A DNA stretch of 64,000 nt from contig NZ_JAERQG010000001.1 of the NCBI RefSeq assembly GCF_016734805.1, forward strand, positions 310,001 to 374,000, read 5' to 3'. Source of the DNA: Marivirga atlantica (GTDB lineage Bacteria; Bacteroidota; Bacteroidia; Cytophagales; Cyclobacteriaceae). The position numbers and the translations under genes are program-made. This document shows, one piece after another, positions 1,219 to 25,136 of the stretch; the first letter of the stretch is position 1; the number at the start of each line of letters is the position of its first letter. Below the pieces are notes generated by a model, which did no database searches, was not told where the DNA came from, and worked only from the letters and a program-made list of their open reading frames with translations.

Positions 1219-1698
1219 ATGAAGATTCTCGAAAAATTCTACAATTCTGTATTGTCATATGATACCTACCTCCATTTAACAACTATGTATATTGTTTGCT
1301 ACTCTAGGTTTGAATATGCCCTTAAGATGTCAGGGTTTAGGAAAAAAGGGAACTATAAGATCGCAATGGCAGATATTGATGGGTTTTTTCATTCATTACA
1401 ATCAATTGATTTAGATGGAGAGGAGATAAAAAAGTCGGTAAAATATATTTTAGAAAACCCTCCAATGGAGTTGCAAATAATAAGAGGCGAACTAGAATTT
1501 AGACCTATAACTCTTTACCCAGATAACCCTCTAGAGTCCATTAAAGATAGTATGAGAACGATACGAAATAATTTCTTTCACGGCAATAAACAAATTGCAG
1601 GAAATAGTTTTAAAAGAAATGCTGAGCTTATAACTCATTCACTAAAGATTTTAGATAGGTTCGTCGAGGAGAATTCTAGCGTAAGGCAACATTATTGA
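1219..1698 (+). CDS. HEPN-like small protein (candidate RNase)
   Basis: This 159-residue, largely helical protein contains RTIRNNFFHGNK around residues 113-124. R116, N117 and H121 form an R-N-x3-H motif, the Rx4-6H signature of HEPN domains, which are metal-independent RNases common in toxin-antitoxin and anti-phage systems. The basic context and the terminal helix after the motif fit the fold. No antitoxin (for example an MNT nucleotidyltransferase) is adjacent; the neighbours are a DUF262 gene (divergent) and the PIWI-like gene (convergent, 33 bp away). It could also be a non-catalytic HEPN accessory protein. The assignment rests on one motif and fold impression only. Confidence 0.5.
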   Translation: MKILEKFYNSVLSYDTYLHLTTMYIVCYSRFEYALKMSGFRKKGNYKIAMADIDGFFHSLQSIDLDGEEIKKSVKYILENPPMELQIIRGELEFRPITLYPDNPLESIKDSMRTIRNNFFHGNKQIAGNSFKRNAELITHSLKILDRFVEENSSVRQHY

Positions 1699-1731: not shown

Positions 1732-3543
1732 TTATATCTCTCTTTCACTTAAGAATATGTTTATTAATCCGAAAGGATATGGCAGTATTGGACTACCACT
1801 TGATCTAATGAAATCTACATTCATCAATGAAAAGAATTTCTCCTCGTCGAATACGCCTGAAAGTACATCTATTCTTCTTAGCTTATGAGATTTAGACTGT
1901 TTGATATTCATGGCATGCTTAAGACCACTAAAGTATTCCATGTTCTCTTTGTCAAACCAAATACCTTGATGAAGTCCAAGGCCCTTTTTCTTTCCTGGAA
2001 TATTATAAATCTTTTGAAGGGATGTACTCTTTTTGATATTGAGTATTTCATAAATCTGAGTCTTATGTTTTAAAAGATCTTCGAAGGAGAAACTTTCCCC
2101 TAGATTATTATCTAAATACTGGTTAAATTCTTCTTTTCCTTCAATCTTCCACTCATTGATATTACGATCTTCCTCTCTAATCAAAAAATCATTCGTTTTG
2201 TCTGGATATAAAAATTTCTTTTTAAGAGGACTAATCATAATTAGTGTATTAGTATTCGTATTTATTAGGAAAGCTCTGTCTTTAGGAATTGACTTGACAT
2301 TAAAACCAACAAAATCGACATAGGCGCCGAGGAGAATATCTAACTCATCACTTTCCAATAAAGGTTGGATTTCAATTTCATCATTTTTAAACTCTAAAAT
2401 GACGTTTTTATATATATATTTGAAAGACCTGGCTTTTTCAAGTAACGGCAAATATGATGTACTTCTACTTCCAAATAATATTTCTTTTAAAAAGAGCTGG
2501 GTTTTAATTATCTCTATTTTTGGGACAAGATCATCAGCTGTAATATTATAGTTAAAATAGTCTGAAGAGTCAGAATTATTTGAATTTACATTGAGTACAT
2601 GACTGATCTTAAAGTCTTTTTTATACTCTGGATATTTGTCTTTTTTTCCTATGTTCTCTATGCCATCTTTGGTGTAATCCAATAGAATTAATTTGGAATT
2701 AGCTTTGGAGGTATTGGTAATTAATTTAGCTGGAAAATCTTCAGCTTTATTCATTCTTTTATCTAAAATTTCAAACTCAAGAGTTGATAAGTCGACATTA
2801 TAATTTTGAGTGTTTTTTTTATTAAAAATACCGTTGTATTGATATGCTTCGATTCCTATTGAATTAAAATAGTCAAGCATATTCCGAATAAAACTCCATA
2901 AAGGTTTGCTTCTTGTTGACTCATAGTTTTGAAATGATCTAGGATCAATGAAATCAATATGACTTCTATTTTTGTTGTTGGAATATTTTTGAAAAACTAA
3001 AGCATTTTCGTGAATCAACTTTTTGGATCTCAATTGCTCTAGTTGGAAAAAATTTTTTCTGTCTCGAGGAATATATATCTCCTCTCTGTAATAAGCATCT
3101 TTTGCTCTTACTCTTCTAAAGGTAACGGCATGATCCTCTATTAAAATTACGTTCCCCTTTTTGTAATCATGGGTTATATCTAATTCTAATGCTTGTATAA
3201 AATCCTGAGATGAAGATTTAACCAAGATATATGGTCGATAACTACTTTTGAAAAAGTTATTATCAATCGAATCATAAGAATATTTATTAAATAATAACTT
3301 AATGCAATCTGGAAAATTTTCTTCTAGCGACTTCTCTTCTCCTTCTTTACCTGTATGATATACTAAGTTTTGATAGCTATTAAAGTAATAAGGCCCTTCT
3401 ATATTCTTCTTAATCCAATTATGAGCATCTAAGTATTTATTAGGACCATTGAACTTTGGTACTTTTACAGCTTTGATAATTGAATTAAAGTTAGACTTAT
3501 TTAAATCGAATTTAATGGATGTTTGAAATACAATCTCACTCAT
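1732..3543 (-). CDS. uncharacterised protein, possible PIWI/Argonaute-like partner of helicase-nuclease
   Basis: This 603-residue protein is not confidently recognised. It is AT-rich, has no membrane segment, and starts at an ATG overlapping the helicase stop as ATGA (3540-3543), so the two are translationally coupled. Features that recall MID-PIWI proteins are a central LILLDYTKDG (about 286-294) followed by KYPEYKK...FKISHVLNVN (303-320), similar to a MID-type Y-K...K...Q/N phosphate-binding run, and a C terminus SPILPYPFGLINIF (584-597) close to the terminal LPYP/LPVP segment of PIWI domains. No DEDX catalytic set is obvious, so it would be inactive as a slicer. Known pPIWI-RE systems pair a PIWI protein with a DinG-type helicase and an REase, which is the same company seen here. 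That identity is an inference. Confidence 0.35.
   Translation of the reverse strand: MSEIVFQTSIKFDLNKSNFNSIIKAVKVPKFNGPNKYLDAHNWIKKNIEGPYYFNSYQNLVYHTGKEGEEKSLEENFPDCIKLLFNKYSYDSIDNNFFKSSYRPYILVKSSSQDFIQALELDITHDYKKGNVILIEDHAVTFRRVRAKDAYYREEIYIPRDRKNFFQLEQLRSKKLIHENALVFQKYSNNKNRSHIDFIDPRSFQNYESTRSKPLWSFIRNMLDYFNSIGIEAYQYNGIFNKKNTQNYNVDLSTLEFEILDKRMNKAEDFPAKLITNTSKANSKLILLDYTKDGIENIGKKDKYPEYKKDFKISHVLNVNSNNSDSSDYFNYNITADDLVPKIEIIKTQLFLKEILFGSRSTSYLPLLEKARSFKYIYKNVILEFKNDEIEIQPLLESDELDILLGAYVDFVGFNVKSIPKDRAFLINTNTNTLIMISPLKKKFLYPDKTNDFLIREEDRNINEWKIEGKEEFNQYLDNNLGESFSFEDLLKHKTQIYEILNIKKSTSLQKIYNIPGKKKGLGLHQGIWFDKENMEYFSGLKHAMNIKQSKSHKLRRIDVLSGVFDEEKFFSLMNVDFIRSSGSPILPYPFGLINIFLSEREI
2323..2337 (+). 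repeat. GGCGCCGAGGAGAAT motif, copy 1
   Basis: This GC-rich 15-mer is identical to the copy at 6812-6826 and shares 13-14 bases with the inverted copies at 4273 and 5112. It lies antisense inside the PIWI-like gene. Its function is unknown. Confidence 0.6.
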
Positions 3544-6500
3544 TTGTAAAAGCTGGTTTTAAGTTCATCAAGTTTCTTTGAAATTATGTCGCCTGTAATA
3601 GGATTAGTGATTCCTGGACAAATAAATATCTCGGCAACATTTAAATTGACCTTCTTACCGTTTAGACTGAATCCAGTTGTTTCATAGGAAAATATATTTT
3701 CGTCATAGGTATAATTAACGATATAATAACGAGCGCTTGGACATACTTTTCTGATTGTTTTAAGCTTCTCAATAGCACTGGTAAGCAGGTCTTTACCTGA
3801 AAAAAACAGTTCATTTAATGAACCTTCCCCATAAAGCTTAGCATCAATAAAATTATCTTCAATTCTAAAATCTGCTAATTCTACAAGCTGTCTATCTTTG
3901 ATATGTTCAACCTCAAAGCCTTCCGAGTACATTATTGCTTTAACGGCTTCCTCACCTATAGCTCCACAAACAATTGCTTGAAAGAACAAAGGGTTCCAAA
4001 TCTTCTGCTCTTCGTATTGACTTGTCCTAAGTTCAACCTCATAGCCGTGATTATAAAAATAGTTTTTAACTACCTTGTTTTTGACAATTAACTCAAAGGG
4101 ATATTTATAATTTATTCTTAAACAATCTTCAGTTTGTTCTGGTAGAATCTCTTTACCCTTCTTAAAGATCAATCCGTCCTTTAGCAGCCTTGTTTTAATA
4201 ATAGCATTATCTAGCTTTACTGGCTTTTGTATCAAGGCATCTTCTCTCAATTGAATCCATTCATGCCAAGGGTTCTCCTCGGCGCCTTTGTCATCCTCGG
4301 AACTATTTCTATATATGGCAAGTCTTTTTAATAGTAGACCGATTTCACGTTTTAAGGCTTCCGTACTATTACCAATATCTTCCGAGCTTAGTGCTTTTTT
4401 TATTTTTGAAACTGTAGAGTTTTTAGCTATAATATTATCAAGTTTCTCAAAGTAGTCTGACTTAAATGAAGCTCTTTCTCGTAGAGAAGTGTGGTTTTGA
4501 TACTTTTCGTCTGTTAGGAATGTTGAATAAACATCTCTTACATCATCCCATAGAATTACTTCACAATGAGGGGTGTACTTCCATTGTCTATCCTGCCGTC
4601 CTAGTACTTGAATAATAAGAGAAGCCATGTATAGCGTATACTCATCTGATTTCAGATACATAGAGTTAAGTCTATTCAAGCCTTGATTGAGGTTAGAGAA
4701 GTAGGTTTTGTAATCAATTTCTTTATTGAAAAGCATTTTTACCAACAAGTAAAAATTCTCCTTTTTAATTGAGCGTTCTTTAAATCTATCCTTACTATTA
4801 CGTTCAATAGCACTAAATCCAAAATAGTCTTTCTCTAAAATCGCAATAGCCTCAAAATCAGTTTTCTTATTTCCATTCCAGCAGACAGGGTTGATTCCAT
4901 TTGAAGCGCTTGCAAATTGCGTCAAAACTATTGTAGCGTGGTTTCCATTATTAAATATTGCCTGATAGTCTTTATTTTTAGCAGACATGAGGTGAGAGGT
5001 ACTTTTATCGAAAAAGAATAGATTTAGCGTTTTATCCTCAACATCAATTTCTTGATGAATTTTAAAATGCTTTACATTCCACCTACTATGAATTTCAGTA
5101 TACCTGGCTGCATTCTCCTCGGCGAATAGGTTTTTTATTTGTGAAAAGGTTGAAGCATAAACTAAATGCGTCTTTGAAATTGAATCTTTAACTACATATT
5201 GAAAATATTTTAAGAATCTAAGTGTCCTATCAAATCTATTTTCAATTGCATTAATGCTATCATATCCACCTTCTGAATTTAAAAAACCATCATGTTTGAT
5301 AATTTTCATCTCATTTTGGAGGGTATCTGTTTTGTTATTTAGAAGAGATTTAAATGTTATTTGTGTTTGACGCTCTTCAGCCTTTTCTAATATTTTTGAT
5401 TTAATAACTGATTTGTAATCAGGACTCCAATCGATGAAATAATTCTGTTTCATCAGGGCAGCGACATCATAGTGATTCACATTCCTTGGTATCTGTATAG
5501 TAGCACTTACACCAAAAACAAGGTTTTTCCTTGATAACTGATCAATTATGTTTTCAGGAGTGGATATTAATTGAGAATGGTTGATTGACACTTTATTTGA
5601 TACAAGGAGATCTGTGCTGTTCTGCTCTATAAAATTTAGAGTTCCAGTATAAAATCGATTTAGATCTGTATCTTTTCTGCTTTTTTGTACCCTAAAAAGG
5701 TAAGGTGTAGTTGATGAAAGAAAATGATAAATCCTGCCTGGCGTATCGTCATTATGAGAGCTCCAGATATCGTTAATAAGAAAATTATAATAATTCTCCC
5801 CTTCTCTATCCAGTATGACCCTAAAAGCACTTTGTATATTCGTTAATACTCTTATAAATATTCTAAAAAAGACATTAGAGTAAATACCATCTTTGTTTTC
5901 ACTGAGCAAAAAATAATCCGTATCCTTCGGTTGTTCAATAAAGAAACCCTTTTTTAAGAATTCCTTATTTGAATGAAACGCTGCCTGCAAATTATTTTTA
6001 GTTTTTGCTTTTATGAAATAATGGCGTTTAGGAAATTCGATTTTGTTGAAATCAAGATCCTTTTTGAAGGTGTCATATACTTTCTTTAGCCTTTCTATTC
6101 CATGATCTGTCTTTTTGTGCCAATTCATAAAATCTTCTAAAAAAACTAAAAGATTGTTCAGCTCTCTTTCATTGGTTATATGCTTTAATACTGTTCTGAA
6201 TGTATAATCAAATTCGTCAATTACAATTATATGGTCTTTAAGAGTCATTAATGAATGCAGACTCTTACCATCATAAGTACTTTTCAAAAGCTTTTGTATC
6301 GAGGCTACCAGAACCTTATCCTCTCCCTCAGTAAATCGGCTAAGAGGAAATAGGTAGTTTCGACCTTCGGTGTCCAGTTTCACATAATCTCTTATATATC
6401 TAAATATCCAATTAGCATCTTCCGATAAGATTGATGAGTCTTCTAGGATGTTAAGTTGCTTGATTCTGAGTACCTTATTTACTTTAGCGTTTAAACGTGG

Positions 6501-6791
6501 ATGACCTTGAAAGTATCTTTCTTTACATTGTTCTAATATATTTGAGTTAATTAAATCAAATAAATGATCAGCTTCACTTTTTAAGTGAACAGCTTTTTCA
6601 CTTACTTCCTCAAAAAACTGATTAGCTAACTTGTTAAAGTATGTCGTATAGATTAGCTTTTTGCTACCTAGTTTATCTACTATTTCAGTTATCGCTTTAG
6701 TTTTTCCCATTCCAGTTGGGGCTGGGACAAAAAACAATCCCTTATTATTTTTTTTTATAACGTCGCGGTAGATATCAGAAATTCTTTCCAT
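3540..6791 (-). CDS. SF2 helicase fused to C-terminal PD-(D/E)XK-like nuclease
   Basis: This 1083-residue protein has Walker A APTGMGKT (24-31), motif II DEFD (about 192), SATIQIP in the middle (motif III-like), a T-rich VLTQFASASNGIN segment and motif VI QVLGRQDRQ (about 730), which together make an SF2 helicase resembling DinG or Cas3-type enzymes. The C-terminal region has GAIGEEAVKAI (about 945), ELADFRI (about 973) and FIDAKLYG (about 982): an E...D...D-A-K pattern typical of restriction-endonuclease-fold nucleases. It is the first gene of a two-gene unit with the PIWI-like gene (ATGA overlap). Expected role: nucleic-acid unwinding and cleavage in an anti-phage or anti-plasmid system. 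Cas3 is unlikely because there is no HD domain and no cas gene nearby. Confidence 0.75.
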   Translation of the reverse strand: MERISDIYRDVIKKNNKGLFFVPAPTGMGKTKAITEIVDKLGSKKLIYTTYFNKLANQFFEEVSEKAVHLKSEADHLFDLINSNILEQCKERYFQGHPRLNAKVNKVLRIKQLNILEDSSILSEDANWIFRYIRDYVKLDTEGRNYLFPLSRFTEGEDKVLVASIQKLLKSTYDGKSLHSLMTLKDHIIVIDEFDYTFRTVLKHITNERELNNLLVFLEDFMNWHKKTDHGIERLKKVYDTFKKDLDFNKIEFPKRHYFIKAKTKNNLQAAFHSNKEFLKKGFFIEQPKDTDYFLLSENKDGIYSNVFFRIFIRVLTNIQSAFRVILDREGENYYNFLINDIWSSHNDDTPGRIYHFLSSTTPYLFRVQKSRKDTDLNRFYTGTLNFIEQNSTDLLVSNKVSINHSQLISTPENIIDQLSRKNLVFGVSATIQIPRNVNHYDVAALMKQNYFIDWSPDYKSVIKSKILEKAEERQTQITFKSLLNNKTDTLQNEMKIIKHDGFLNSEGGYDSINAIENRFDRTLRFLKYFQYVVKDSISKTHLVYASTFSQIKNLFAEENAARYTEIHSRWNVKHFKIHQEIDVEDKTLNLFFFDKSTSHLMSAKNKDYQAIFNNGNHATIVLTQFASASNGINPVCWNGNKKTDFEAIAILEKDYFGFSAIERNSKDRFKERSIKKENFYLLVKMLFNKEIDYKTYFSNLNQGLNRLNSMYLKSDEYTLYMASLIIQVLGRQDRQWKYTPHCEVILWDDVRDVYSTFLTDEKYQNHTSLRERASFKSDYFEKLDNIIAKNSTVSKIKKALSSEDIGNSTEALKREIGLLLKRLAIYRNSSEDDKGAEENPWHEWIQLREDALIQKPVKLDNAIIKTRLLKDGLIFKKGKEILPEQTEDCLRINYKYPFELIVKNKVVKNYFYNHGYEVELRTSQYEEQKIWNPLFFQAIVCGAIGEEAVKAIMYSEGFEVEHIKDRQLVELADFRIEDNFIDAKLYGEGSLNELFFSGKDLLTSAIEKLKTIRKVCPSARYYIVNYTYDENIFSYETTGFSLNGKKVNLNVAEIFICPGITNPITGDIISKKLDELKTSFYK
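4273..4286 (-). repeat. GGCGCCGAGGAGAA motif, copy 2
   Basis: A 14-base match on the minus strand, inside the helicase gene, where it encodes Gly-Ala-Glu-Glu-Asn using codons (GCC, GAG) that are rare in this AT-rich gene. Confidence 0.6.
5112..5124 (-). repeat. CGCCGAGGAGAAT motif, copy 3
   Basis: A 13-base match on the minus strand, also inside the helicase gene, encoding Ala-Glu-Glu-Asn. Shorter relatives (CGAGGAGAA) occur at 1665-1674 (+) and around 1838-1846 (-). Confidence 0.55.
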
Positions 6792-6976: not shown

Positions 6977-7684
6977 TTATCTTTTAAGATTGATTTTCGA
7001 TGGAAAGATCAAATCATTTGAGTCGTATGGTATAACCTTTCCGGCGCATTCATCATAAATCAGTGTTTTGGTACTTGTCTTAGCTATGTAAAATTTATCT
7101 GTATCATTTTCCTCCATAAGTAAGACTTCTTTATCCTTAAACATAATTTCAAAAGTTTCTCTATTGGAAACAGCTCCTTCAAAATCTGCTAATGCTAAGA
7201 AGAATGCGTAAATCATCAATAAAACTATATTTAAATAGATTAAATTCTTGTTGTAAAAAATAACCAGGATTGATAGTGTAAATGAAACGCTAAAAAGTAT
7301 TACCGTAAAAAAATAGGGGTGTAGGAACATAATATTTTTTAATAGGAAGGAACCTATTAGCGCAATCCATAACGACTTCAAAAAAAGCAAATTCAGTAAA
7401 TCTCTTTTTGTTTCTGGCTTTGAAAGCTTTATTCTAAAAACCATTAACAGGGGTATCGACATAATAAAAACAGCGATGATTAATGGAATTATTTCCAACC
7501 CCTTGATAAACATTAAGAATGGAGGATCCTGAATGACGAAGATACGTTCAGCTGACAAATTTGTATAATTAAAAAAGGACAGGTAGTAACTTAATCCGAT
7601 CAGTGATATCGTTACCCCATAGTAAATGTAATTATGTTTATAGCCGCCTTTGTAATTAAAATCAGATTCTAACCATTTTGCCAA
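6977..7684 (-). CDS. five-helix membrane protein with soluble C-terminal tail
   Basis: This 235-residue protein is not assigned to a family. Hydrophobic segments lie at about 18-38, 63-83, 104-121, 124-144 and 148-168, followed by a charged tail of about 65 residues containing YDECAGKVIPYDSNDL. The topology suggests an inner-membrane protein with a cytoplasmic or periplasmic tail. It is transcribed leftward toward the helicase but separated from it by 185 bp that hold the helicase promoter region, so it is probably a separate unit. A short inverted repeat GACTG-TT-CAGTC lies immediately upstream of the start codon (about 7686-7697). In defence islands, membrane proteins of this size often act as effectors, but nothing in the sequence shows that here. 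Confidence 0.6.
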   Translation of the reverse strand: MAKWLESDFNYKGGYKHNYIYYGVTISLIGLSYYLSFFNYTNLSAERIFVIQDPPFLMFIKGLEIIPLIIAVFIMSIPLLMVFRIKLSKPETKRDLLNLLFLKSLWIALIGSFLLKNIMFLHPYFFTVILFSVSFTLSILVIFYNKNLIYLNIVLLMIYAFFLALADFEGAVSNRETFEIMFKDKEVLLMEENDTDKFYIAKTSTKTLIYDECAGKVIPYDSNDLIFPSKINLKR

Positions 7685-7790
7685 CTGACTGTTCAGTCTG
7701 CTTATTTTTAATAAAGAGGGCTTTATGCGGTTTAAATAAAGAATTACAGATGGGTTTTGCCGTTGACTCTGATTGTTGAAATATAGAAAT

Positions 7791-7815
7791 AAAAAAAGCC
7801 TTCTACAAGAAGGCT
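7791..7815 (-). terminator. rho-independent terminator of the permuted tRNA-like transcript
   Basis: The hairpin AGCCTTCT-ACA-AGAAGGCT (7797-7815) has a run of seven A on its left on the plus strand, which becomes a U tract after the hairpin for a leftward transcript. It ends the RNA that carries the 40-codon ORF and the tRNA-like structure. A second AT-rich hairpin lies at about 7830-7852. Confidence 0.85.
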
Positions 7816-7865
7816 ATCTATATTAGTAGGCCATATTATTAAAAATAATGGCTCTTTGAATTCAA

Positions 7866-7949
7866 CTCGGTGCCTTGCCACTTGGCTACTTGCACTTCTA
7901 TATTTAATCCATTGAGTGCAAGGAGAGAATCGAACTCTCGATCTCCGAG
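7866..7949 (-). ncRNA. circularly permuted tRNA-like RNA (3' half precedes 5' half)
   Basis: Read on the minus strand. The 3' half comes first: anticodon-stem 3' strand CTCGG (7949-7945), variable loop AGATC, T arm GAGAG-TTCGATT-CTCTC (7939-7923) and acceptor 3' strand CTTGCAC (7922-7916). After a 20-nt spacer the 5' half follows: acceptor GTGCAAG (7895-7889), TA, D arm GCC-AAGTGGCAA-GGC (7886-7872), A26 and anticodon-stem 5' strand CCGAG (7870-7866). Acceptor (7 bp) and anticodon stem (5 bp) pair between halves, and conserved T8, A14, G15-C48, G18G19 and TTCGA are all present. No anticodon loop remains: the stem continues as GAATTTAA / TTGAATTC with a 7-nt bulge. CCA is not encoded. After 5' and 3' tRNA processing the product would be two pieces held by pairing, as in two-piece tmRNA. 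Confidence 0.85.
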
Positions 7950-7973
7950 GTTTATCTTAAATTCTCTAATACC

Positions 7974-8096
7974 CTATTTGCGTTTAGGTGGTTTTAGAGA
8001 TGGAGTATTTCCAGGGGTATTTTTATTATCTCTTTGACGCCTATCAGGCTTTCCTGTGGAAATCGCAATTCTTTTTGGTCCAGTTTTTAATCCCAT
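7974..8096 (-). CDS. small basic 40-residue ORF upstream of the tRNA-like RNA
   Basis: An ATG at 8096 opens a 40-codon frame ending TAG at 7974. The peptide is strongly basic and rich in Lys, Arg, Pro, Thr and Asn (start MGLKTGPKRIA, end SLKPPKRK), with no hydrophobic segment. It ends only 10 bases before the helix that extends the anticodon stem of the tRNA-like RNA, with no terminator between, so both should share one transcript. The peptide is not recognised. It could be a nucleic-acid-binding peptide, a reading frame linked to the tRNA-like element, or a chance ORF; coding is unproven at this length. Confidence 0.45.
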   Translation of the reverse strand: MGLKTGPKRIAISTGKPDRRQRDNKNTPGNTPSLKPPKRK

Positions 8097-8175
8097 GTTC
8101 AGTAATTTAGGTTCATTCAATTAAACGTGCATTGAAATATTAAAGTTCATATATTAAACTATAATTTCAGCCAAT

Positions 8176-8403
8176 ATGAAAAAGCTATTAATCCTCCTAA
8201 GCATTGTTTTTATTTCTCAATCTTTAATTGCTCAGAAAAAGAGATTAAAGAATCCTCAATCAACCACTCTATTTCATTTAAATGATTCTTTATTTTCTCC
8301 AAGGTTTGGGGTTGTTGTTAAACAAGATTTAGCATCAACTTCTGATATTTACACCTGTTATTGGTCACCGTCCTTTCGCACACGTGATCTTTATCAATGC
8401 TGA
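8176..8403 (+). CDS. short exported protein with Bacteroidota signal peptide, possibly truncated
   Basis: The 75-residue product begins MKKLLILLSIVFISQSLIAQ, a typical Sec signal peptide for this phylum with cleavage near IAQ. The remaining 55 residues contain HLNDSLFSPRFG and end in RTRDLYQC, with two Cys in the last 17 residues. No family is recognised. It stops 11 bp from the end of tnsE (convergent), so it may be the remnant of a longer exported protein cut when cargo was gained or lost, or a small genuine secreted product. The divergent partner is the 40-residue ORF, and the 79 bp between them should hold both promoters. Confidence 0.5.
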   Translation: MKKLLILLSIVFISQSLIAQKKRLKNPQSTTLFHLNDSLFSPRFGVVVKQDLASTSDIYTCYWSPSFRTRDLYQC

Positions 8404-8414
8404 AATAGCATAAT

Positions 8415-10007
8415 TTAACTCAAAACTCCCACTAACCTATCCGCGAATCTCTCAATATATTTTTGAGCTGAATTTCCATCGAATTCAATGGTTTGTGTTA
8501 AGGACTTAGTTCTTCTAGGGTGTCTAATAAGTCTATAATCAGCATACAACTCCAAAGTATCTTGTGGCCAGGTTCCATGGTCTTGAGCGAGTTCTGAGAA
8601 GATAAGATCAAATAGCTCTTGCGTCTTCTTACTACGTAGATTAGTCATCAACAAAGTAGATATAAAACGATTATCTGAGCTATCCACTTCAATAATATAG
8701 ATTGGATTTTTTAATTGAAGTTGCACCATAACCCCTTTTCGCTTATGGCTTCCTATAAATTGAAAGGCGTTTTCATCTTTAAATTCATGCACCTTATATT
8801 GAAAGTTAAGTGAAAGACGACTAGTTAAGAACTCAACAACTTTTGTGAAAAACACCAGGCCTGGTGCTATATCAGCCTGATCAAACTTATTAGATTCATA
8901 ATCCCTGTTTAATGCTAAGAAGGAATCCCCTTGTTTATCATTATCTTGATTTAAGCTAAGTTCACCGTTTTCAAATCGCCTAATGGCAAAAGGATTAGAT
9001 TTATCATCATTTGATTGTTCTTCATTTTTAGACCTGTTTTTTTGAATCTTTACTTCTTTGTCGAATTCATATTCTAAAAATAGTGCTTGCACTTCTTCAT
9101 ATTTGTCATTTGATTCCCTGTCGCTTTCTTTGTTATCTTTTGATATGGGCACCTTAAAGGATTGTTTTCCTTTTTCATCTTCTCCTTCTTCCTCTTTAGT
9201 ATTAGTTCTCTTTTTTCTACTTCTTAAATCTGGATGATTAATAGTTACGTATTCAGCAGGAAAAGGAATCTTGTTTTGAATTGCGCCTATATAATGCACC
9301 AATTTAATGTTGCTCTCATTCAAATTTTTGCATGTAAATTTTAGATTGAGAGTATTAAAAAAGGGATTGCCATTCTCAAAATTTGAAGTACCACTTATTA
9401 ATTGACTTTGAATGCTTTTCCAAAAACCTCTAATAGTCGGTTCATAAAGTACTAAAATAATCTTTTCAATCATTTTAAAAGGAAGAAGGCTTTTAGGGAA
9501 AGATCTATTTAGATCTAAGGTAAGCTCAGTACCTTTTCTAGTCTTCCTTACACCCCCATAGTCATTATCGATAAAGCTCTCTATGGCATCATATTGGAAC
9601 AATAATTTCAATGATCTATTATCCAAGCCAAGAAAAGATCTAAAGAGCTCATAGCATGGAAATGCATAAGTAGAGCCCGCCTCAGTTAACAAATAATACT
9701 TTGCATTTTGTAGCGCCTCAGCAGTCGGACTGAAAAATTGACTAATGGAAGGTAAGTCTTCTAAGGAACAAAATGTACCATCATTAAAATTTTCAAAGAT
9801 CTGAACCTCAGTACTCGCCTTGTCAGTGATCACCTTTATTGTATTATCTTCCTGGTATTCAGGACCAATGGCGAGTTTAGGTATTTGTGTTATCGGAAAT
9901 ATCTTTTCTCCAACCTCTTTTGTATTTGTGTCTACAATATGACACCTTACAAAGAAGTTGCCGTATTGATTAAAACATTCTGATACTGCATAAATTTGAA
10001 AAGCCAT
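8415..10007 (-). CDS. tnsE: TnsE-like transposition targeting protein
   Basis: This 530-residue protein is the last gene of the tns operon, 1 nt after tnsD. Its length matches Tn7 TnsE (about 540 residues), its position is exactly that of tnsE, and the C-terminal half (about 380-530), with VEVDSSD-like strands and a GTWPQDTL...YRLIRHPRR stretch, looks like the conserved TnsE C-terminal domain. The middle (about 265-350) is a charged low-complexity linker. In Tn7, TnsE directs insertion into replicating DNA, including conjugal plasmids, through DNA 3' ends and the sliding clamp. Identification depends partly on gene order, and sequence similarity to Tn7 TnsE was not computed. Confidence 0.72.
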   Translation of the reverse strand: MAFQIYAVSECFNQYGNFFVRCHIVDTNTKEVGEKIFPITQIPKLAIGPEYQEDNTIKVITDKASTEVQIFENFNDGTFCSLEDLPSISQFFSPTAEALQNAKYYLLTEAGSTYAFPCYELFRSFLGLDNRSLKLLFQYDAIESFIDNDYGGVRKTRKGTELTLDLNRSFPKSLLPFKMIEKIILVLYEPTIRGFWKSIQSQLISGTSNFENGNPFFNTLNLKFTCKNLNESNIKLVHYIGAIQNKIPFPAEYVTINHPDLRSRKKRTNTKEEEGEDEKGKQSFKVPISKDNKESDRESNDKYEEVQALFLEYEFDKEVKIQKNRSKNEEQSNDDKSNPFAIRRFENGELSLNQDNDKQGDSFLALNRDYESNKFDQADIAPGLVFFTKVVEFLTSRLSLNFQYKVHEFKDENAFQFIGSHKRKGVMVQLQLKNPIYIIEVDSSDNRFISTLLMTNLRSKKTQELFDLIFSELAQDHGTWPQDTLELYADYRLIRHPRRTKSLTQTIEFDGNSAQKYIERFADRLVGVLS

Positions 10008-10008
10008 T

Positions 10009-11817
10009 CTAACCAGATATTGCCACTTTTTGATAAGTTAATCTTTGAAGAATCTCCTCTGCTAGTATCTCTATATCTTTTGAAATGTACTCCTTCCTGA
10101 TTCCAGCTTCCCTGTATAAACGCCACTTTGGTGGCACATAATAACCTCTAGAGTATGAATCCGAAACCTGCAAAAGTCTTCTTTTTCTATATTCTAGGGG
10201 AGACTCAGCTTTCTTCTTGATAAAAGACATACAAGCAGGTAAGCGTGCTTTATTTTTTAAAAAGGTGGATTCATGGCCTGATAGTCGTATCAGCACGTTA
10301 TCGCTAATTCTATTTTTAAACCCCTTTTTATTAAGCTTTCTCAATCCTTTTATGATGTTGAATAACCATTCTTGATCCCGTTTCTTCCAATCTATTGGCT
10401 TTCTATTATTTCTTTTGGATATAGGATATTTTTGGTTTATAATCCACTCTTTATTTACCTTATATAAATAAATGAATAGGGCAGGATTCAAAGACCTTAA
10501 TTGTGAAATTGACATAGTCGGGTTGTCACCTTTAAGCTTACTCCATTTTTCCTTTTTTAGCCTCAGTGTATCATTTTGCTCAAGTGTATTATTATGAATG
10601 TTTTTTGCCTGACATAATATGGTCTTGGAATCGCAATTTAGTTTTCTTGCTATAGCTCTAATAGGCAATTTCTTATTCATTAGAATAATCAATTCATCTA
10701 TCCATAATTGACCAAACTCTTTAACCCTTCTATTTATTTTGGCCTTTTCCTTATTATAGCTTTCTGTATAAATAAATCCACATTCACACTTTATGTAAGC
10801 AATCTCTCTTGCTGTCTTAGCGTCAATACCGTAATTAATTTTGGTCGTATTGCTTGTTCCATGATCAGGACATACCGGGTTTCTGCATGGCTTTCTTAAT
10901 TCTGAAGCATAATGTGACTGTATAGTCCTCTTATGATGTATAAATTCAAGCAACAAAACATGTCTTATCGGGTGAATTGACTTTCTTACTTTCCGAACCA
11001 CCTGTTTAAGCCAACAGGAATTACTATGTCTGCTCACTTCACTTTGAAGTGCCTTTAAAGTATTTGCTCCATAAAAGGTTGTAAAGTCAACATACAATTT
11101 TTCTAAATCAACACACTTTTTCCCTTTGATGTAGCCTACTTCTTTAATTGCTTTATTATAAAAATAAGGGTCATTGGTGAAGCTTCTTAATAGTTTGCTT
11201 TCGCCTTCACATAGGCTGACAACTTTTCTTGAAATGGCTAACAACCGTTTATTACTGTTACTAACTATCGTACCATTAATAGATAAAGAGTCAGGCTCTA
11301 TAAACTTATGCTTATTGTATCTATAATCAAATTTATCATTTGAGGTTAAATAGATATTATGCTTTATGCATATATCAATTGCTGTAATTTGATGAAACCT
11401 TCGGAGAAAGGGTTCTCTCTTCAGATCATAATCTTCTCTGAGACATTTAACGCAATATCTTGGTCCTGTGATAGCCTTTATTTTTCCTGCATTTAAACCA
11501 AGCCTTGTATGTATATCTCCGGAGCTAGTTTTCATGGAGTCCAGAACCAGATTTTTCTTTCTCACAGATAAAAAAGGATGGTATAATGGATATAGGGTAT
11601 GATTATTAATAATTCCCGGAAGATTCTCATTGTAGATAATCCTTGAATTAATTAGTTTATTCAGTCCACTTGGAAAATCAAGTGTTGAAGAAATTTTGTC
11701 CGTGTCGAAAATATTTAACAACAACTGTTTTGGTCCAGTTGTGCCATACCTTGAGATAAATCTAGCAATTATACTATAAAGAACTTCGTCCTTATATGGC
11801 CTAATAACGTTATACAC
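10009..11817 (-). CDS. tnsD: TnsD/TniQ family target-site selector
   Basis: The 602-residue TniQ-family protein begins with the typical RPYKDEVLYSIIARF opening and has a zinc-binding knuckle CVKC...CIKH (about 120-155) and a second one CRNPVCPDH...CEC (about 310-345), then helix-turn-helix-like segments (RAIARKLNCDSKTI). The length is that of full TnsD rather than the short CRISPR-associated TniQ. TnsD recognises the end of glmS and recruits TnsC, and this element indeed sits just beyond glmS. The start is a GTG that overlaps the tnsC stop by one base; no better ATG precedes the conserved opening. Confidence 0.9.
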   Translation of the reverse strand: MYNVIRPYKDEVLYSIIARFISRYGTTGPKQLLLNIFDTDKISSTLDFPSGLNKLINSRIIYNENLPGIINNHTLYPLYHPFLSVRKKNLVLDSMKTSSGDIHTRLGLNAGKIKAITGPRYCVKCLREDYDLKREPFLRRFHQITAIDICIKHNIYLTSNDKFDYRYNKHKFIEPDSLSINGTIVSNSNKRLLAISRKVVSLCEGESKLLRSFTNDPYFYNKAIKEVGYIKGKKCVDLEKLYVDFTTFYGANTLKALQSEVSRHSNSCWLKQVVRKVRKSIHPIRHVLLLEFIHHKRTIQSHYASELRKPCRNPVCPDHGTSNTTKINYGIDAKTAREIAYIKCECGFIYTESYNKEKAKINRRVKEFGQLWIDELIILMNKKLPIRAIARKLNCDSKTILCQAKNIHNNTLEQNDTLRLKKEKWSKLKGDNPTMSISQLRSLNPALFIYLYKVNKEWIINQKYPISKRNNRKPIDWKKRDQEWLFNIIKGLRKLNKKGFKNRISDNVLIRLSGHESTFLKNKARLPACMSFIKKKAESPLEYRKRRLLQVSDSYSRGYYVPPKWRLYREAGIRKEYISKDIEILAEEILQRLTYQKVAISG

Positions 11818-13382
11818 TACTTCATTAATAGGTTTGAGTTTTTAAGATCAAATAGAACACCAATTTGATCTAAATTATGTTTTAGTTTAAGCTCATCAGA
11901 GTCATAACATAATCTTAGATCACCTTCCGTAAAGACAGGCTTTCCTTTAGCATCTAATTTTGAATTTTCAAGTATATCACGGCTATCAGGTTTTGACTCT
12001 GTTTCATTAAAAGATTTTAGGATTAAAACAGTGATTTCACTATCTGATTTTTCTGGATTGATTTCTAAAAAGGATTTAATTGTATCTCCTAGATGCGTAA
12101 GATCGGGATTTATTTTAAGCAACTCGTTTTGTATGTTTATACATCTGTCATCCAATGAAATATTTGAAACACCTCCATATTGAGTATCTATTAGATCAGT
12201 AAATTTATTCGCACCATACTTTCTTGGATTCCTAATTTCCTCAATTGCAGTATCTTCTAACCAGAACTTCGAACGTTTTACTTTATTAAGAATGGAGTAA
12301 GAAATACATGATTTATTAGTCTCGAATGCTTCTCGTTGCGCGCCTACAAACAGCCTAATTGCTATATCAATTAAGCCTTGACTAACAGCGTAAAAATAAT
12401 TGCTAGCAGACTCATCATAGGGCATCAGCTCGTCTGTATACTGATATTTGAAAAGTGAATAAATAAATAACTCCCAATCTTCTCCTTTTGCTAACCGATT
12501 CCATTTTGTTGCTCCCTCTCCAGACCATCTTCGCATCAATGTGTAGTTCGACTCTATAAGTGTTGTAATTTCAGGAGTACCTGTAATAATTATAGGTATG
12601 TTTAGGGTATTGTTGAGCTTAGTAAAAAAAGTTAAAAGATCATCCTTATTAGCCCTGGGTGAATTAATTAAGTTTTGAATTTCATCCACAAAGATTATCC
12701 CTATTTGGTGTGAGATAGTTAACTTAGCCATTGCGTTGACCAGTTCATATATACCCGTTCTATTTCCTTTAAAATAAGTTTTTAAATAGTTCGTGTGAAG
12801 GTATTTGTCTAGATACTCTAAAAAATCTACGCAAAGTTCTTTAATAGAGGAGCCTTTGGGACATTCTAACTTAACAAAAGGAATCTGTACGAAGGGTTCA
12901 AGTCCTTTAAGATCATGTTTTATTCCAAAAGGGTATAAACCAATAATTTTATTAATAATCGTTGATTTTCCAATTCCAGAAGGACCAATGAACAGACTTC
13001 CCAATGAATTAGTCGTTAAGCTTAACTCTTCTTCAAAATTCAATAAATCCTTGTAACTTTTTTTGATACGCTGTGTCGGATTATTTGAAAAAGGATTTCT
13101 TTTCACATAGCCTGCAAGAAAACTATTTACTATACTTCTATAGAGGGCGTAATGGTTTTCATTAGGAACAAAAAACCTTTGTCTTAATCCTATTAATAAG
13201 GTCTCTCTTTCTTGTGCTGAAAGCTTCAAAGCATTTTTCCGAGATAGAGGTCTATTTTTTACTAGCGCCTGGTTAAAAATTTCAAAACTATATCCAACTC
13301 CAATAGCTTCAATTAAAGGGTTGCCTTTAAAATCAGGGTTTAACAATTCTTCATACTCAGCTTCTACAATATGTCTATTCAT
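11817..13382 (-). CDS. tnsC: TnsC AAA+ ATPase, transposition regulator
   Basis: This 521-residue AAA+ ATPase has Walker A GPSGIGKST (about 132-140), Walker B IIFVDEIQN (about 230) and a sensor-like IIITGTPE. TnsC assembles on target DNA, bridges the target selector (TnsD or TnsE) to the TnsAB transposase, and its ATP state controls target immunity. The gene overlaps tnsB by 8 bp and tnsD by 1 bp, indicating translational coupling through the operon. The C-terminal 150 residues are less conserved and would contact TnsA/TnsD. Confidence 0.92.
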   Translation of the reverse strand: MNRHIVEAEYEELLNPDFKGNPLIEAIGVGYSFEIFNQALVKNRPLSRKNALKLSAQERETLLIGLRQRFFVPNENHYALYRSIVNSFLAGYVKRNPFSNNPTQRIKKSYKDLLNFEEELSLTTNSLGSLFIGPSGIGKSTIINKIIGLYPFGIKHDLKGLEPFVQIPFVKLECPKGSSIKELCVDFLEYLDKYLHTNYLKTYFKGNRTGIYELVNAMAKLTISHQIGIIFVDEIQNLINSPRANKDDLLTFFTKLNNTLNIPIIITGTPEITTLIESNYTLMRRWSGEGATKWNRLAKGEDWELFIYSLFKYQYTDELMPYDESASNYFYAVSQGLIDIAIRLFVGAQREAFETNKSCISYSILNKVKRSKFWLEDTAIEEIRNPRKYGANKFTDLIDTQYGGVSNISLDDRCINIQNELLKINPDLTHLGDTIKSFLEINPEKSDSEITVLILKSFNETESKPDSRDILENSKLDAKGKPVFTEGDLRLCYDSDELKLKHNLDQIGVLFDLKNSNLLMK

Positions 13383-15513
13383 CTTCCATTAATCTTCTAA
13401 AAAAATCCGACTTACTATTATTTGGCTTTGGATCGATTTTTTCTTCGTGTCTTGAATTGATGGAAATTACCTTTGTTTCCTTTTTAGGCTTTGACTCATT
13501 CGTATATGAAGGATTTTCAATTTGTGATCTTTTCTCTGTTTTTAAAATCTCTTTTTCTTTAGCCTTGTTTTTTCTTATGCTTTTTGATTTTAGATTCTTA
13601 GACCTTTTCTTTTTAGGCTGTTGATTTTTGGCATTTTCAATTATATTTTTCGTGAATATGGCTGTATTGATGTTAGCTGTTCTATTTGTTTCCCTTTGCT
13701 CATAAGATCTATATTTTTCATCTTCAATATGTGCTTCTCTTTCCCATAAACTTAAAGAAACTAAAGAAGGGTTTTTTGAGACGCTTAATCTAGCTGTAAT
13801 AATCTCGTTCTCTAATTTAATGTAAACCTCATCTAGTATATGAGGATTGTAATAAGCTTCAAAATAAATTCTTTTGTCTTGGGTACGAATCATTTCGTTC
13901 TCTAAAGAACAACCTCTTGGCAGGTTATACCAACCATTCTTAAATCTAAACCCATCCTTTGTTAAAGCCCCTTTCTCGATCGGAAGAAATCTAACCTTTA
14001 GCTGATCTAGATTAATCATTCTCATTATTCCTGATCTATTTTCAATACCCCAATTATATAAAGTTTTAGGTACTGCCTGTATCTTGGCTTTTATCATGTC
14101 TGCATCTTTGGGGTATTTATCTTGAAGTTTTGTATTGTTATAATCTATTATCGATCTAATTATTATAGCATAGTATTCCTTCAATGTTAAACATGCGTCA
14201 AGTCTAGCATCCCTGACACCTCTTTGCCTATGGTTAGTTGACTTTATACCGAAATGAGATTCAGCACCTCTTAACTTTGCATGTAGTTCATTAAAATGAT
14301 TTTCAACTATACCTTTTAGATCCGCTCTATAGGACGGTGTATTTTCTATACTTATTCCTAAATCCCTAATTATGTTGTTAGACTTATTCTTTAGTAACTC
14401 TGCTCTATCTGCTACCACAGCATTTGGTAAACCGTACATATTCCATTCTTCCGGATAAAAGAAAAAGTTAGTTACATCTTCCAAACCCGCCTCCTTTATA
14501 ACTAATTCCTTTTGAACAATTGAATTGTATAATGCCTGAGCTGCAGTGTAGAAGGAAGGCTCATCTAAAGTAACTAAAACACCTACAATCGCATGGCTAA
14601 ATACATCTGAAACAAAATACAAAGTAGGTGATCCAATTGGAATACTTCTATCTATTTGACTTACTAATTCAATATCTGCTGTAGTAGAATCAATTTGCCA
14701 TAATGAGCCTGGACCAATAGTATTTATTTTTGACGATTCGGAGGTTGTTCTCATATCCTTGTCAAAAATCTTATCACCTTTTTTCGCTCGAAGCCGGTTT
14801 TCTATCTTGAACTTTAGCTCTCCAGTACGTCTAAACTGCATAAGGCTTGGAACATTTTCAAAATTGCCCTTTAAAGATTCAGGATATATAACAGCTAAGA
14901 AGTTTTCGTAGGCTGTATTCAATGATGCCTGTTCAACATCTAAATAAAATTTTTTGTATCCATTCTCAATTACTCTTCGATTTCCTTCATTGATTGTGAA
15001 ATTATTTTGTACTGAGTATTTATTTCTTCTACCTAATTTGTTTTTAGGATTATCAACTCTTTTACCTCTTGCTCCTGAGTTAATTAATTCTGGTAGCAAC
15101 CCGAGTCTGTTTTTCCCCTTTTTGAAGTATTTTAATATTATTCGTCTTACCGATTGTCTTGAGAATTTCGTAGAATTAGAAATTTCAGAGCATTTTTGAT
15201 TGAAGATCTTATTTACGAAAATTAATGGCTCACATCCTTCGATTAAATCTATAACTTCACAATATTTCTTCCATTTCTCTAAGCTTGCCGGTTTATAGTC
15301 TGATGGATCAGCGTAAATTAGATTATCCTCAATAATAGTGATTTGAGAATTACTAATTTCATCTAGAAGAGACTCATAACTGATGGCTTCAGGGAGTTTA
15401 TTTTCATCATTAATATTAATCCAGAACACTTGATCAATATCTTTTGAAATATATAGAATTCTATAATGCGAATTACTATGCTGCCAAATCTGATTCACTA
15501 ATAGAGGTTGCAT
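13375..15513 (-). CDS. tnsB: TnsB transposase (DDE integrase)
   Basis: The 712-residue transposase of the retroviral-integrase superfamily has catalytic residues visible as WQIDST (Asp about 275), VVADRAEL (Asp about 366) and VENHFNEL (Glu about 402). N-terminal helix-turn-helix segments (about 60-130) would bind the terminal repeats, the 16-bp boxes at 25048-25103. The C-terminal tail (about 610-712) is Lys/Asn-rich and ends RRLMEDE, comparable to the TnsC-contacting tail of Tn7 TnsB. TnsB performs 3' end cleavage and strand transfer. The start overlaps tnsA by 38 bp. Confidence 0.95.
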   Translation of the reverse strand: MQPLLVNQIWQHSNSHYRILYISKDIDQVFWININDENKLPEAISYESLLDEISNSQITIIEDNLIYADPSDYKPASLEKWKKYCEVIDLIEGCEPLIFVNKIFNQKCSEISNSTKFSRQSVRRIILKYFKKGKNRLGLLPELINSGARGKRVDNPKNKLGRRNKYSVQNNFTINEGNRRVIENGYKKFYLDVEQASLNTAYENFLAVIYPESLKGNFENVPSLMQFRRTGELKFKIENRLRAKKGDKIFDKDMRTTSESSKINTIGPGSLWQIDSTTADIELVSQIDRSIPIGSPTLYFVSDVFSHAIVGVLVTLDEPSFYTAAQALYNSIVQKELVIKEAGLEDVTNFFFYPEEWNMYGLPNAVVADRAELLKNKSNNIIRDLGISIENTPSYRADLKGIVENHFNELHAKLRGAESHFGIKSTNHRQRGVRDARLDACLTLKEYYAIIIRSIIDYNNTKLQDKYPKDADMIKAKIQAVPKTLYNWGIENRSGIMRMINLDQLKVRFLPIEKGALTKDGFRFKNGWYNLPRGCSLENEMIRTQDKRIYFEAYYNPHILDEVYIKLENEIITARLSVSKNPSLVSLSLWEREAHIEDEKYRSYEQRETNRTANINTAIFTKNIIENAKNQQPKKKRSKNLKSKSIRKNKAKEKEILKTEKRSQIENPSYTNESKPKKETKVISINSRHEEKIDPKPNNSKSDFFRRLMEDE

Positions 15514-16297
15514 AATCTACATTAAACTTAAGGTTTGTCAATAATTTATTTTCATCCGTAATGAGTATATTCAAATCAGTTGTAATAAGTCTTCTAGCTA
15601 TTAAAATTTTGATTAACCTGAGCGAGGTCCCAGGAGAATACGCAAAGAATTTATCTGATTCTCTCAATAGATAATTCAAACATTCCATATTCTGATGCTC
15701 AGCTTTCTGATTGAGAAAAGCATATACATTCTGAAAATAGGTTAGTTCATAGTTATTATTTTGGCAGGAGGCATGCAAATCCTTGTATGCTAATCTTTCC
15801 TTCCGACTTGGTAGATTTTTATCAGTAATTATTTTAAATTCTATCCCTTTTCGCTTCCAATACCTTCTTTCTAACTCAAATAACTCTAGTTTTCTTGGTT
15901 TATCACTAAGTTCCTTCAGGTATTTAAAGGTGTAGGCTATTTGCGTTCCTGACTTATATATTACAAAAAAGTCAGTCGTTAAAATATGAGGATCACTATT
16001 TTTTGTTGATGGGTAACTAATACCCATCTCTTCTGCAATATTTCTTGCTAATTCATAGTCTAATAATGGAAATTGTTCTCGAATCTCTTCTACCTCAGGG
16101 CTTAAGTCAAATATATAAAATATCTCGGCCTCTTTATTACTATGAAAATGATGCTCCCTTTTATGCTTCAACCCTAAAGATCTAACACTATTCCCTCTCC
16201 CGGAAAACTCTCCAACTTTGATCCAAGGGATATATTCAACCCCCTGGCCATAGCCTCTTTTTTGTTTTATTTTTGATTTATATGAAGGACCTTTCAT
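15476..16297 (-). CDS. tnsA: TnsA endonuclease subunit
   Basis: The 273-residue protein matches Tn7 TnsA motif by motif: YIPWIKV, GRGNSVRSLG, then the endonuclease triad E56 (SNKEAEIF), D109 (LTTDFF) and K125, with IREQFPLLD between and the LELERRYWKRKGI segment after it. TnsA cuts the 5' strands at the transposon ends so that the heteromeric TnsAB transposase moves the element by cut-and-paste. With tnsA intact, excision rather than co-integrate formation is expected. It is the first gene of the tns operon, with 135 bp separating it from the divergently transcribed restriction operon. Confidence 0.95.
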   Translation of the reverse strand: MKGPSYKSKIKQKRGYGQGVEYIPWIKVGEFSGRGNSVRSLGLKHKREHHFHSNKEAEIFYIFDLSPEVEEIREQFPLLDYELARNIAEEMGISYPSTKNSDPHILTTDFFVIYKSGTQIAYTFKYLKELSDKPRKLELFELERRYWKRKGIEFKIITDKNLPSRKERLAYKDLHASCQNNNYELTYFQNVYAFLNQKAEHQNMECLNYLLRESDKFFAYSPGTSLRLIKILIARRLITTDLNILITDENKLLTNLKFNVDYATSISESDLAA

Positions 16298-20199: not shown

Positions 20200-21348
20200 A
20201 TGGATGGTGGATATTATGCTATTAAAGGATTTGAATTTCAATTTGATAAAACATTAATTGAAGCGTTAGATTCTACTGACGAGAATGCAGTTTTATCACT
20301 TGAACAAATACAGGATATAAATAATAGCGATTTTGTAATGCAAATAAAATACAAAGAAGCTACGAAGTTTACTCCTTCAGTAATACGAAACCCAATCATT
20401 CAATTAATAGAAGAATATCAAAAGGATAAGTCAAAAAGATACATTTTATACTGCCATTTTTCCGATAAGAATAAGTATTCTGAAAAAATAGATTTAAAAC
20501 ATCTAAATACTATTCTAGGGAAAGAACAAGGAAGATTTACTAATAATGATAAGAATGACTTTTTGAGTGCTTTTGAGCTAAGATTTTCTGAAACATTTCA
20601 GGCTCAATTTGAGACGTCATTGAATAAACTTCAATTATTAAGCTTTGTAAATTCTAAAGATGATGCTATTTATTTTTATTCGATATTAATTGATTATCTA
20701 AGGAAAAAAGTTGTTAAAAATGCTCCCCAAAATCTAATAGGAAGGCAAGTAACAAAAAAAGAGCTGATAGATTACCTAAATAAGGGTCGAAAAATCATCT
20801 TCCTTAATTCCTACAAAGAGTATAGAGGAGAACAGGAATATTTTAGATTTTTGAAATCAAGGTTTAAAAAGCCAGTTAAAAATCAAAATACAATAGTTTA
20901 TTTAGGCAAAATAGAAGAAACGGATATTTGCAATCTTCCCTCGTTTATATTTCAATTAATCGAAAAACATTATCATAAGGCAAATCACGATATTAAGCCT
21001 CTCACATTTGTAATACCTTTTTCAAAAGTAGAGAATGTTAAAAAATATTTGATACAACAAAATTGTCCATATAATGATGGTTATGAAACTATTTTATTTA
21101 ATCAAAAACACTTTGAATCTTCAGCTATCATTAATAAAAAAATTTTAGGTAAGAAAACAACAAATAGTCTATCGAAAACATCATTTAAAGCACGAATTAT
21201 ATCAAATGAAACTTTTGATAATCTCAGTAAATTAGGTATACCAGTTTCATGGATTTTTATTGAAAGTAAAGTACATCACTTATTATGTGATTCTAATTAT
21301 CAAGTAATCAGTAGATTAAATACAGAACAGATTTTAAAACTTTTTTAG
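20200..21348 (+). CDS. Cap4/DUF4297-like nuclease partner of HerA
   Basis: The 382-residue protein opens with GYYAIKGFEFQF (about 4-15) and then E35, D39 and QIK (48-50) in LEQIQDINNS...VMQIKYKE, the pattern of the dsDNA-endonuclease (DUF4297/Cap4-type, PD-(D/E)XK) domain in which a predicted Glu-Asp-QxK set coordinates metal. The rest (about 150-382) is unassigned. It lies 2 bp after the restriction enzyme gene and 1 bp before herA. Nuclease-HerA pairs such as DUF4297-HerA are known anti-phage systems in which the ATPase ring and nuclease form one complex. Family membership is by motif and context, not by a search. Confidence 0.62.
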   Translation: MDGGYYAIKGFEFQFDKTLIEALDSTDENAVLSLEQIQDINNSDFVMQIKYKEATKFTPSVIRNPIIQLIEEYQKDKSKRYILYCHFSDKNKYSEKIDLKHLNTILGKEQGRFTNNDKNDFLSAFELRFSETFQAQFETSLNKLQLLSFVNSKDDAIYFYSILIDYLRKKVVKNAPQNLIGRQVTKKELIDYLNKGRKIIFLNSYKEYRGEQEYFRFLKSRFKKPVKNQNTIVYLGKIEETDICNLPSFIFQLIEKHYHKANHDIKPLTFVIPFSKVENVKKYLIQQNCPYNDGYETILFNQKHFESSAIINKKILGKKTTNSLSKTSFKARIISNETFDNLSKLGIPVSWIFIESKVHHLLCDSNYQVISRLNTEQILKLF

Positions 21349-25029: not shown

Positions 25030-25047
25030 ATGTTATTAGTTTACATT

Positions 25048-25106
25048 TGTCCAAACTTTATTAACATTGTCCAAACTTTATTATTTTTGTCCAGACTTTA
25101 TTAACA
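25048..25106 (-). repeat. Tn7-like right end with three TnsB-type repeats
   Basis: The 16-mer TGTCCAAACTTTATTA occurs at 25048-25063 and 25068-25083, and with one change (A to G) at 25088-25103, giving an exact 20-bp pitch. On the minus strand the end reads TGTTAATAAAGTCTGGACA inward from 25106. Tandem closely spaced TnsB sites and a 5'-TGT terminus are hallmarks of Tn7-family right ends. TnsB binding is inferred. Confidence 0.85.
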
Positions 25107-25136
25107 AGCCCCATGACTATTACCGACAGCTAATTT
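25107..25136. other. attTn7-like insertion junction downstream of glmS
   Basis: These 30 bp separate the transposon terminus from the glmS stop codon, as expected for TnsD-directed insertion. The first five bases outside the element (25107-25111, AGCCC) are the predicted target duplication; the second copy should flank the unseen left end. Confidence 0.75.

Follow-up and report, generated by a model that had tools for sequence, protein, structure and literature searches.

The window, by which we mean the whole 64,000-nucleotide stretch of Marivirga atlantica DNA analysed here, holds the tnsABCDE genes of a Tn7-like transposon and, downstream of tnsE and between this gene and the left-hand cargo, a permuted tRNA-like module on the minus strand (Table 1). 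The right end of the transposon, with three 20-bp repeats spanning 25047–25106, adjoins a glmS-like gene (25137–26975) with SIS and glutamine amidotransferase domains, and three inverted copies of the repeat about 3.1 kb before the window mark the other end; the repeats at both ends thus give an element size of about 28 kb. With tnsABCDE, a glmS-like neighbour and inverted TnsB-type repeats at both ends, this is a Tn7-like element at glmS, and the Pfam assignments of the tns genes bear out an earlier sequence-only reading that had placed the module in a mobile element. Relatives of TnsE were found neither in genome_contigs (peptide patterns) nor in plasmids, and beyond its own genome none were found in 291 genomes of the order or 395 of the phylum. 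Among the cargo genes of the transposon are those for a type IIG restriction enzyme and for a DUF4297-HerA pair. A 159-aa transposon protein without a family match (window 1219–1698, plus strand) contains an RNNFFHG stretch, which we take to be reminiscent of HEPN nucleases, and window positions 1732–6791 on the minus strand encode two adjacent cargo proteins, one of 603 aa (no family match) and one of 1083 aa (weak AAA_22 and DinG-type matches at its N-terminus), which are possibly a candidate defence pair. PDB sequence searches with two cargo proteins gave no match.

Table 1. Coordinates of the permuted module, its flanks and the transposon features in the window.
Feature	Position	Strand	Basis or remark
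Probable RNA 3' end: intrinsic-terminator-like hairpin and T run	7797..7815	-	terminator-site scan against shuffles
A/T-rich hairpin downstream of module	7830..7852	-	sequence; hairpin there in MFE fold
Predicted basal stem, 3' strand TTGAATTC	7858..7865	-	MFE fold; runs on into anticodon-type stem
Permuted tRNA-like module, whole	7866..7949	-	sequence; R1, 61.9 bits
Anticodon-type stem, 5' strand CCGAG	7866-7870	-	sequence
D arm GCC-AAGTGGCAA-GGC, then A	7872-7886 (arm)	-	sequence
Acceptor 5' strand GTGCAAG, then TA	7889-7895 (GTGCAAG)	-	sequence
20-nt loop at the end of the acceptor helix (spacer of the sequence-only reading)	7896..7915	-	sequence
Acceptor 3' strand CTTGCAC	7916-7922	-	sequence
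T arm GAGAG-TTCGATT-CTCTC	7923-7939	-	sequence
Anticodon-type stem, 3' strand CTCGG, then AGATC	7945-7949 (CTCGG)	-	sequence
Predicted 8-bp basal stem, 5' strand GAATTTAA	7957..7964	-	MFE fold; then 7-nt bulge 7950-7956
Small ORF, 40 aa, basic	7974..8096	-	just upstream of module; widespread on plasmids
tnsE (TnsE_C, PF18623)	8415..10007	-	Pfam
tnsD (TniQ and TnsD)	10009..11817	-	Pfam
tnsC (TniB/AAA)	11817..13382	-	Pfam
tnsB	13375..15513	-	PADLOC TnsB, E 3.7e-12; no Pfam match
tnsA	15476..16297	-	Pfam
Right end of transposon: three 20-bp TnsB-site-like repeats	25047..25113	+	ends read by eye

Read along the minus strand from 7949 to 7866, the module presents the 3' strand of an anticodon-type stem, a variable region, the T arm, an acceptor hairpin, the D arm and the 5' strand of the anticodon-type stem, with 7 of 7 pairs formed in the acceptor helix and 5 of 5 in the anticodon-type stem. 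The sequence-only reading had given these coordinates exactly and was right in describing both stems as fully paired. ARAGORN finds no tRNA and no tmRNA in the window, and Rfam at its curated cutoffs gives no match there. The permuted cloverleaf has a fold energy of −22.2 kcal/mol versus −25.8 kcal/mol for the minimum free energy (MFE) fold, which retains the anticodon-type, T and acceptor stems and does not form the D arm.

Immediately outside the module lies the predicted basal stem, which is weak when set against controls, with comparable stems in 2.6–6.9% of these (0.026–0.069). About 50 nt downstream of the module is the terminator-like site; four such sites occur in 7600–8500 versus 0.3 expected from shuffles. 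Promoter-like matches are at chance level (4 versus 3.8 in shuffles), one of them lying on the minus strand at 8321–8292 (9/12), and a scripted search found no Bacteroidota-type promoter. At the outer junction of the module, one predicted fold has a single 7-nt bulge with the opposite strand unbroken and no bulge-helix-bulge, and no anticodon loop is evident from the sequence across this junction. These features bear on the reading of the locus as a genuine permuted tRNA gene like those of algae and archaea, in which the ends would be ligated at the anticodon loop and the spacer excised to yield a working tRNA. The algal and archaeal genes, as far as the accessible parts of the sources describe them, have their halves in the same order as the window RNA, whose T, D and acceptor arms are complete, and a missing CCA is no objection because 31 of the genome's 33 ordinary tRNAs also lack an encoded CCA. 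The window RNA is unlike those genes, however, in having neither a bulge-helix-bulge junction nor an evident anticodon loop, and the bacterial counterparts that are known are tRNA mimics; we regard a true permuted tRNA gene as highly improbable. Charging and decoding would in any case be unlikely without cuts and ligation, since a loop closes off the acceptor end and no anticodon loop is evident.

Covariance model R1 was built from the genome's own tRNA genes, 23 distinct ones with a short variable arm being taken from the total of 33, rearranged into the order 3' half, spacer, 5' half with random 19-nt spacers, and aligned, the target itself being excluded. R1 gives the target 61.9 bits, with E 1.2e-21 when the window is searched and, as the top match, E 7.9e-20 for the whole genome, so that the claim that tRNA elements stand in permuted order on the minus strand, and far beyond chance, holds with a model to which the target did not contribute. 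The runners-up in the genome, namely a Glu-Glu tandem (46.4 bits), a Tyr-Gly tandem (39.1 bits) and tRNA-Asp with its flank (35.4 bits), all overlap ordinary tRNAs, whereas the target has no adjoining tRNA. Because of these overlaps R1 alone is unspecific below about 46 bits, and the scores of the Glu-Glu and Tyr-Gly tandems imply that two like tRNAs in tandem can mimic a permuted one under R1. In a contrast set of 21 other loci (100,059 bases, mostly neighbourhoods of the small ORF: 20 ORF-bearing loci and the transposon left flank), R1 gives no match at E<=0.1.

An alternative is that the module is a remnant or excision product of two identical tRNA genes in tandem, made up of the 3' half of one, the spacer and the 5' half of the next, with the outer halves lost. 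The high R1 scores of tandem like tRNAs would fit such an origin, as would the D arm, which equals that of tRNA-Cys and tRNA-Gln genes in other bacteria, the statistically weak basal stem, and the lack of a homologue in which the RNA is retained. It needs, however, both outer breaks to fall at the anticodon loop; moreover, the window is free of ARAGORN tRNAs, beyond short chance matches neither half recurs in the genome, the tRNAs of the genome itself do not have these stems, and a terminator-like site follows downstream. A tandem remnant is accordingly unlikely in our view. A pattern joining the T arm and the D arm matched 33 loci in genome_contigs and one in viral_contigs, none of which was kept as a homologue, with two ARAGORN tRNAs at the match in 29 of 34 and one in the other five; R1 at E<=1e-9 scored the matched place in a single case (1/34), the Gly-Cys tandem of L181. 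As the pattern retains the D arm of the window RNA, this search would miss diverged relatives. BLAST of the 131-nt module region against phages and plasmids gave no match at E<=1. Neither these searches nor the DNA comparison across the order described below yielded a homologue of the window RNA. A class-wide R1 search, in which 11 candidates per genome were scored, was dominated by tandem tRNAs and missed the target itself, and its counts are no census; 29 of the 30 loci stored from it overlap ARAGORN tRNAs, the exception being L106.

At relaxed thresholds, Rfam gives 13 matches in 7600–8420. Among these the tmRNA model touches the T arm, and a two-piece (permuted) tmRNA-like RNA was considered. 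In permuted tmRNA genes the acceptor strands come in the same order as in the window RNA, and tmRNA is not known to have a D stem. The window RNA does have a D stem, the tmRNA match is confined to the T arm (13.1 and 9.6 bits), and with no tmRNA called by ARAGORN in the window this identity is exceedingly remote, even though permuted tmRNA genes are described for some bacteria in the part of the literature available to us.

The lowest E value in the Rfam search belongs to YrlA (RF02553), a bacterial Y RNA, whose model aligns end to end (1–114 of 114) over 7854–7965 with 27.1 bits (E 0.0017). This is below the RF02553 gathering cutoff (27.1 versus 69 bits), a cutoff that is strict, because modules linked to the Ro60 (TROVE) gene at L111 (28.5–32.5 bits) and L115 (39.0 and 41.4 bits) also miss it. 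A review (PMC8394870, from the portion accessible to us) presents bacterial Y RNAs as Ro60 partners; in YrlA the basal stem holds the Ro protein, while a second domain resembles D, T and acceptor arms, undergoes modification by DusA and TruB, and binds PNPase. The bacterial Y RNA of PDB entry 6CU1 superposes on tRNAs by way of a circular permutation according to the accessible part of the ARTEMIS report (PMC11472068). YrlA (RF02553; 6CU1) and the window RNA thus share a circularly permuted module made up of a T arm, a looped acceptor hairpin and a D arm, on a basal stem that is predicted for the window RNA; in contrast to YrlA, the window RNA scores below cutoff, is without the Ro-linked motif described below, has no TROVE match in its genome and resides on a Tn7-like transposon.

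To compare the module with Ro60-linked RNAs, the 7–9 kb around each TROVE gene was taken from the 13 genomes that possess one among 295 of the class (L148–L160). An R1 module overlapping no ARAGORN tRNA is found at 12 of the 13 loci, with best scores of 42.4–58.1 bits, L154 being the only one without an R1 match. These same 12 loci have the motif YCGTA..ACTTCG, in many cases immediately before a module; by this linkage the motif would be the Ro-binding part. Of the 20 rows listed for TROVE-linked modules, 12 show TTGCC on the downstream side (by eye). Long acceptor loops occur in TROVE-linked modules as well (18 nt in L160, 14 nt in one module of L149). Ordinary ARAGORN tRNAs, 1–18 each, are present in 8 of the 13 TROVE stretches (L150, L151, L152, L154, L156, L157, L158 and L159). 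The Ro60-linked Y RNAs (L148–L153 and L155–L160) and the window RNA are alike in having a module that R1 recognises as permuted, whereas YCGTA..ACTTCG and TTGCC are found with the former and neither accompanies the latter: the one match to YCGTA..ACTTCG in the window, at 20388, is far away. TROVE-free L161 has one match to this motif, on the other strand and about 2.9 kb from its module. With the topology known from 6CU1 and modules at 12 of the 13 sampled Ro60 loci, two proposals of the sequence-only reading are not supported: that the permuted arrangement is new to bacteria, and that a tRNA gene in need of ligation is the likeliest identity.

The same data speak to the possibility that the window encodes a canonical Ro60-bound Y RNA, the Ro protein being too diverged for detection or encoded elsewhere. 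The tRNA-like topology is identical, and 20 of the 245 genomes searched in the family contain TROVE. The module, however, is without the Ro-linked motif that is present at 12 of 13 TROVE loci, a TROVE search of its own genome gives no match at E up to 1, and none of the nine same-genus genomes listed (its own and eight others) has one. With neither a Ro-linked motif nor a TROVE match in the genome, the window RNA is not a canonical Y RNA by these data, and we consider that identity rather improbable. In the section of a jumbo-phage survey available to us, a few phages are said to have TROVE proteins (PMC7824862).

Permuted modules occur in other TROVE-free genomes (G568, G495, G545 and G458). 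When 41 genomes of the family were searched with R1 and 29 loci (L200–L228) were checked, those tRNA-free at the match included L209–L213 and L217; L204, L214 and L216 were also tRNA-free, L204 and L214 being near a contig end. Ten loci (L107, L108, L109, L110, L209–L213 and L217) have a long RNA containing permuted tRNA modules, two modules being seen in eight of the ten (by eye); the last module is frequently followed by an anticodon-type hairpin. Upstream, this RNA has a conserved part, GTTTCTGTATGGC..CCATAGTG..ATATGCTGC in an alignment of seven, the upstream region of L110 being less similar to the GTTTCTGTATGGC type. The long RNA is no family of Rfam 15, which returns tRNA, YrlA and isolated weak matches only at these loci. 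The Ro motif is absent just upstream of its modules, and TROVE was not found in hosts G568, G495, G545, G458 and G1011 and is present in one host, G1006. One exact pattern found no long RNA in viral_contigs, and the phage BLAST matches to it cover tRNA-like parts only, with at most 24% of the query covered among the matches listed. The long RNA resembles the window RNA in its permuted modules and in being free of the Ro motif just upstream, and differs from it in the conserved upstream region of the GTTTCTGTATGGC type and in mostly having two modules.

For covariation, 19 permuted modules (that of the window and 18 others) from 14 sources were aligned by R1, the sources being the window, eight long-RNA loci and five TROVE loci that are free of ordinary tRNAs; the other eight TROVE loci, mainly as a guard against tandem tRNAs, and L211 and L212 were excluded. 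In this alignment 95.0% of cells are paired versus 61.3% in shuffles, two-sided changes occur in 17 of 18 pairs versus 13.1 in shuffles, with both stems covarying, and pairing falls to 40–53% when partner columns are shifted by one to three. As this alignment was fitted to R1 from hand-picked sources, the covariation backs the module class and not the window RNA alone.

The loop-closed acceptor, the lack of an evident anticodon loop and the complete T and D arms favour a mimic that binds tRNA-handling proteins, and the window RNA is probably an orphan tRNA mimic of the Y-RNA (YrlA) type that is without the Ro part. It would be a small non-coding RNA, transcribed from downstream of tnsE in the Tn7-like transposon at glmS, in which a permuted tRNA-like module stands on a short basal stem and is followed by a terminator-like site. 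Such an RNA would stay permuted, its loop-closed acceptor end being neither charged nor used in decoding, and would offer the tRNA elbow (T arm, D arm and acceptor helix) to tRNA-binding proteins. Either it may act as a decoy, that is, as a competitive inhibitor of tRNA-acting enzymes, or it may be a tether that holds a partner such as PNPase. Given a mimic of the Y-RNA type, a decoy rather than a tether is conceivable, and we propose it tentatively; a decoy for tRNA-targeting enzymes had also been among the alternatives of the sequence-only reading. In the part of Hughes 2020 available to us, competitive inhibition of an anticodon nuclease is named as one possibility for the YrlA domain (PMC7790460). 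More speculatively, and rather doubtfully as a whole, permuted mimics may have left the Ro60 system to become free agents on mobile elements and in a wider Ro-free set in the class, the transposon RNA being a stand-alone decoy that protects tRNAs against tRNA-acting enzymes, for instance RNases of the defence cargo, or modulates these enzymes. Because the topology was already known, the window RNA cannot count as the first bacterial RNA with a permuted tRNA-like form; what varies from the known is that a Tn7-like transposon carries the permuted mimic and that no Ro60 is recognisable in the genome. No such transposon-borne, Ro60-free case is named in the titles and abstract openings of the literature covered, which is partial and includes few subscription papers. 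A tRNA mimic on a transposon whose host genome has no recognisable Ro60 raises the question of other roles for such mimics, and the modules lacking a Ro motif elsewhere in the class, including those of the long RNA, make a Ro-independent role testable.

DNA relatives of the region were found at E<=0.01 in 32 of 291 genomes of the order, its own included. In six others the match is strong (E<=5.4e-12) and confined to the small ORF upstream of the module, and the remaining 25, short pieces with E 1.2e-4 or more, were deemed chance matches. The small ORF and the RNA were rejected as one unit, R1 finding no permuted tRNA in the 20 ORF-bearing loci. With the ORF product as query, tblastn at E<=1 matches 1183 of 72,556 plasmid records, 862 of them over at least 80% of its length; most of the 60 matches listed have no annotated gene at the site, and the plasmid hosts include Persicobacter, Campylobacter, Klebsiella, Salmonella and Agrobacterium.
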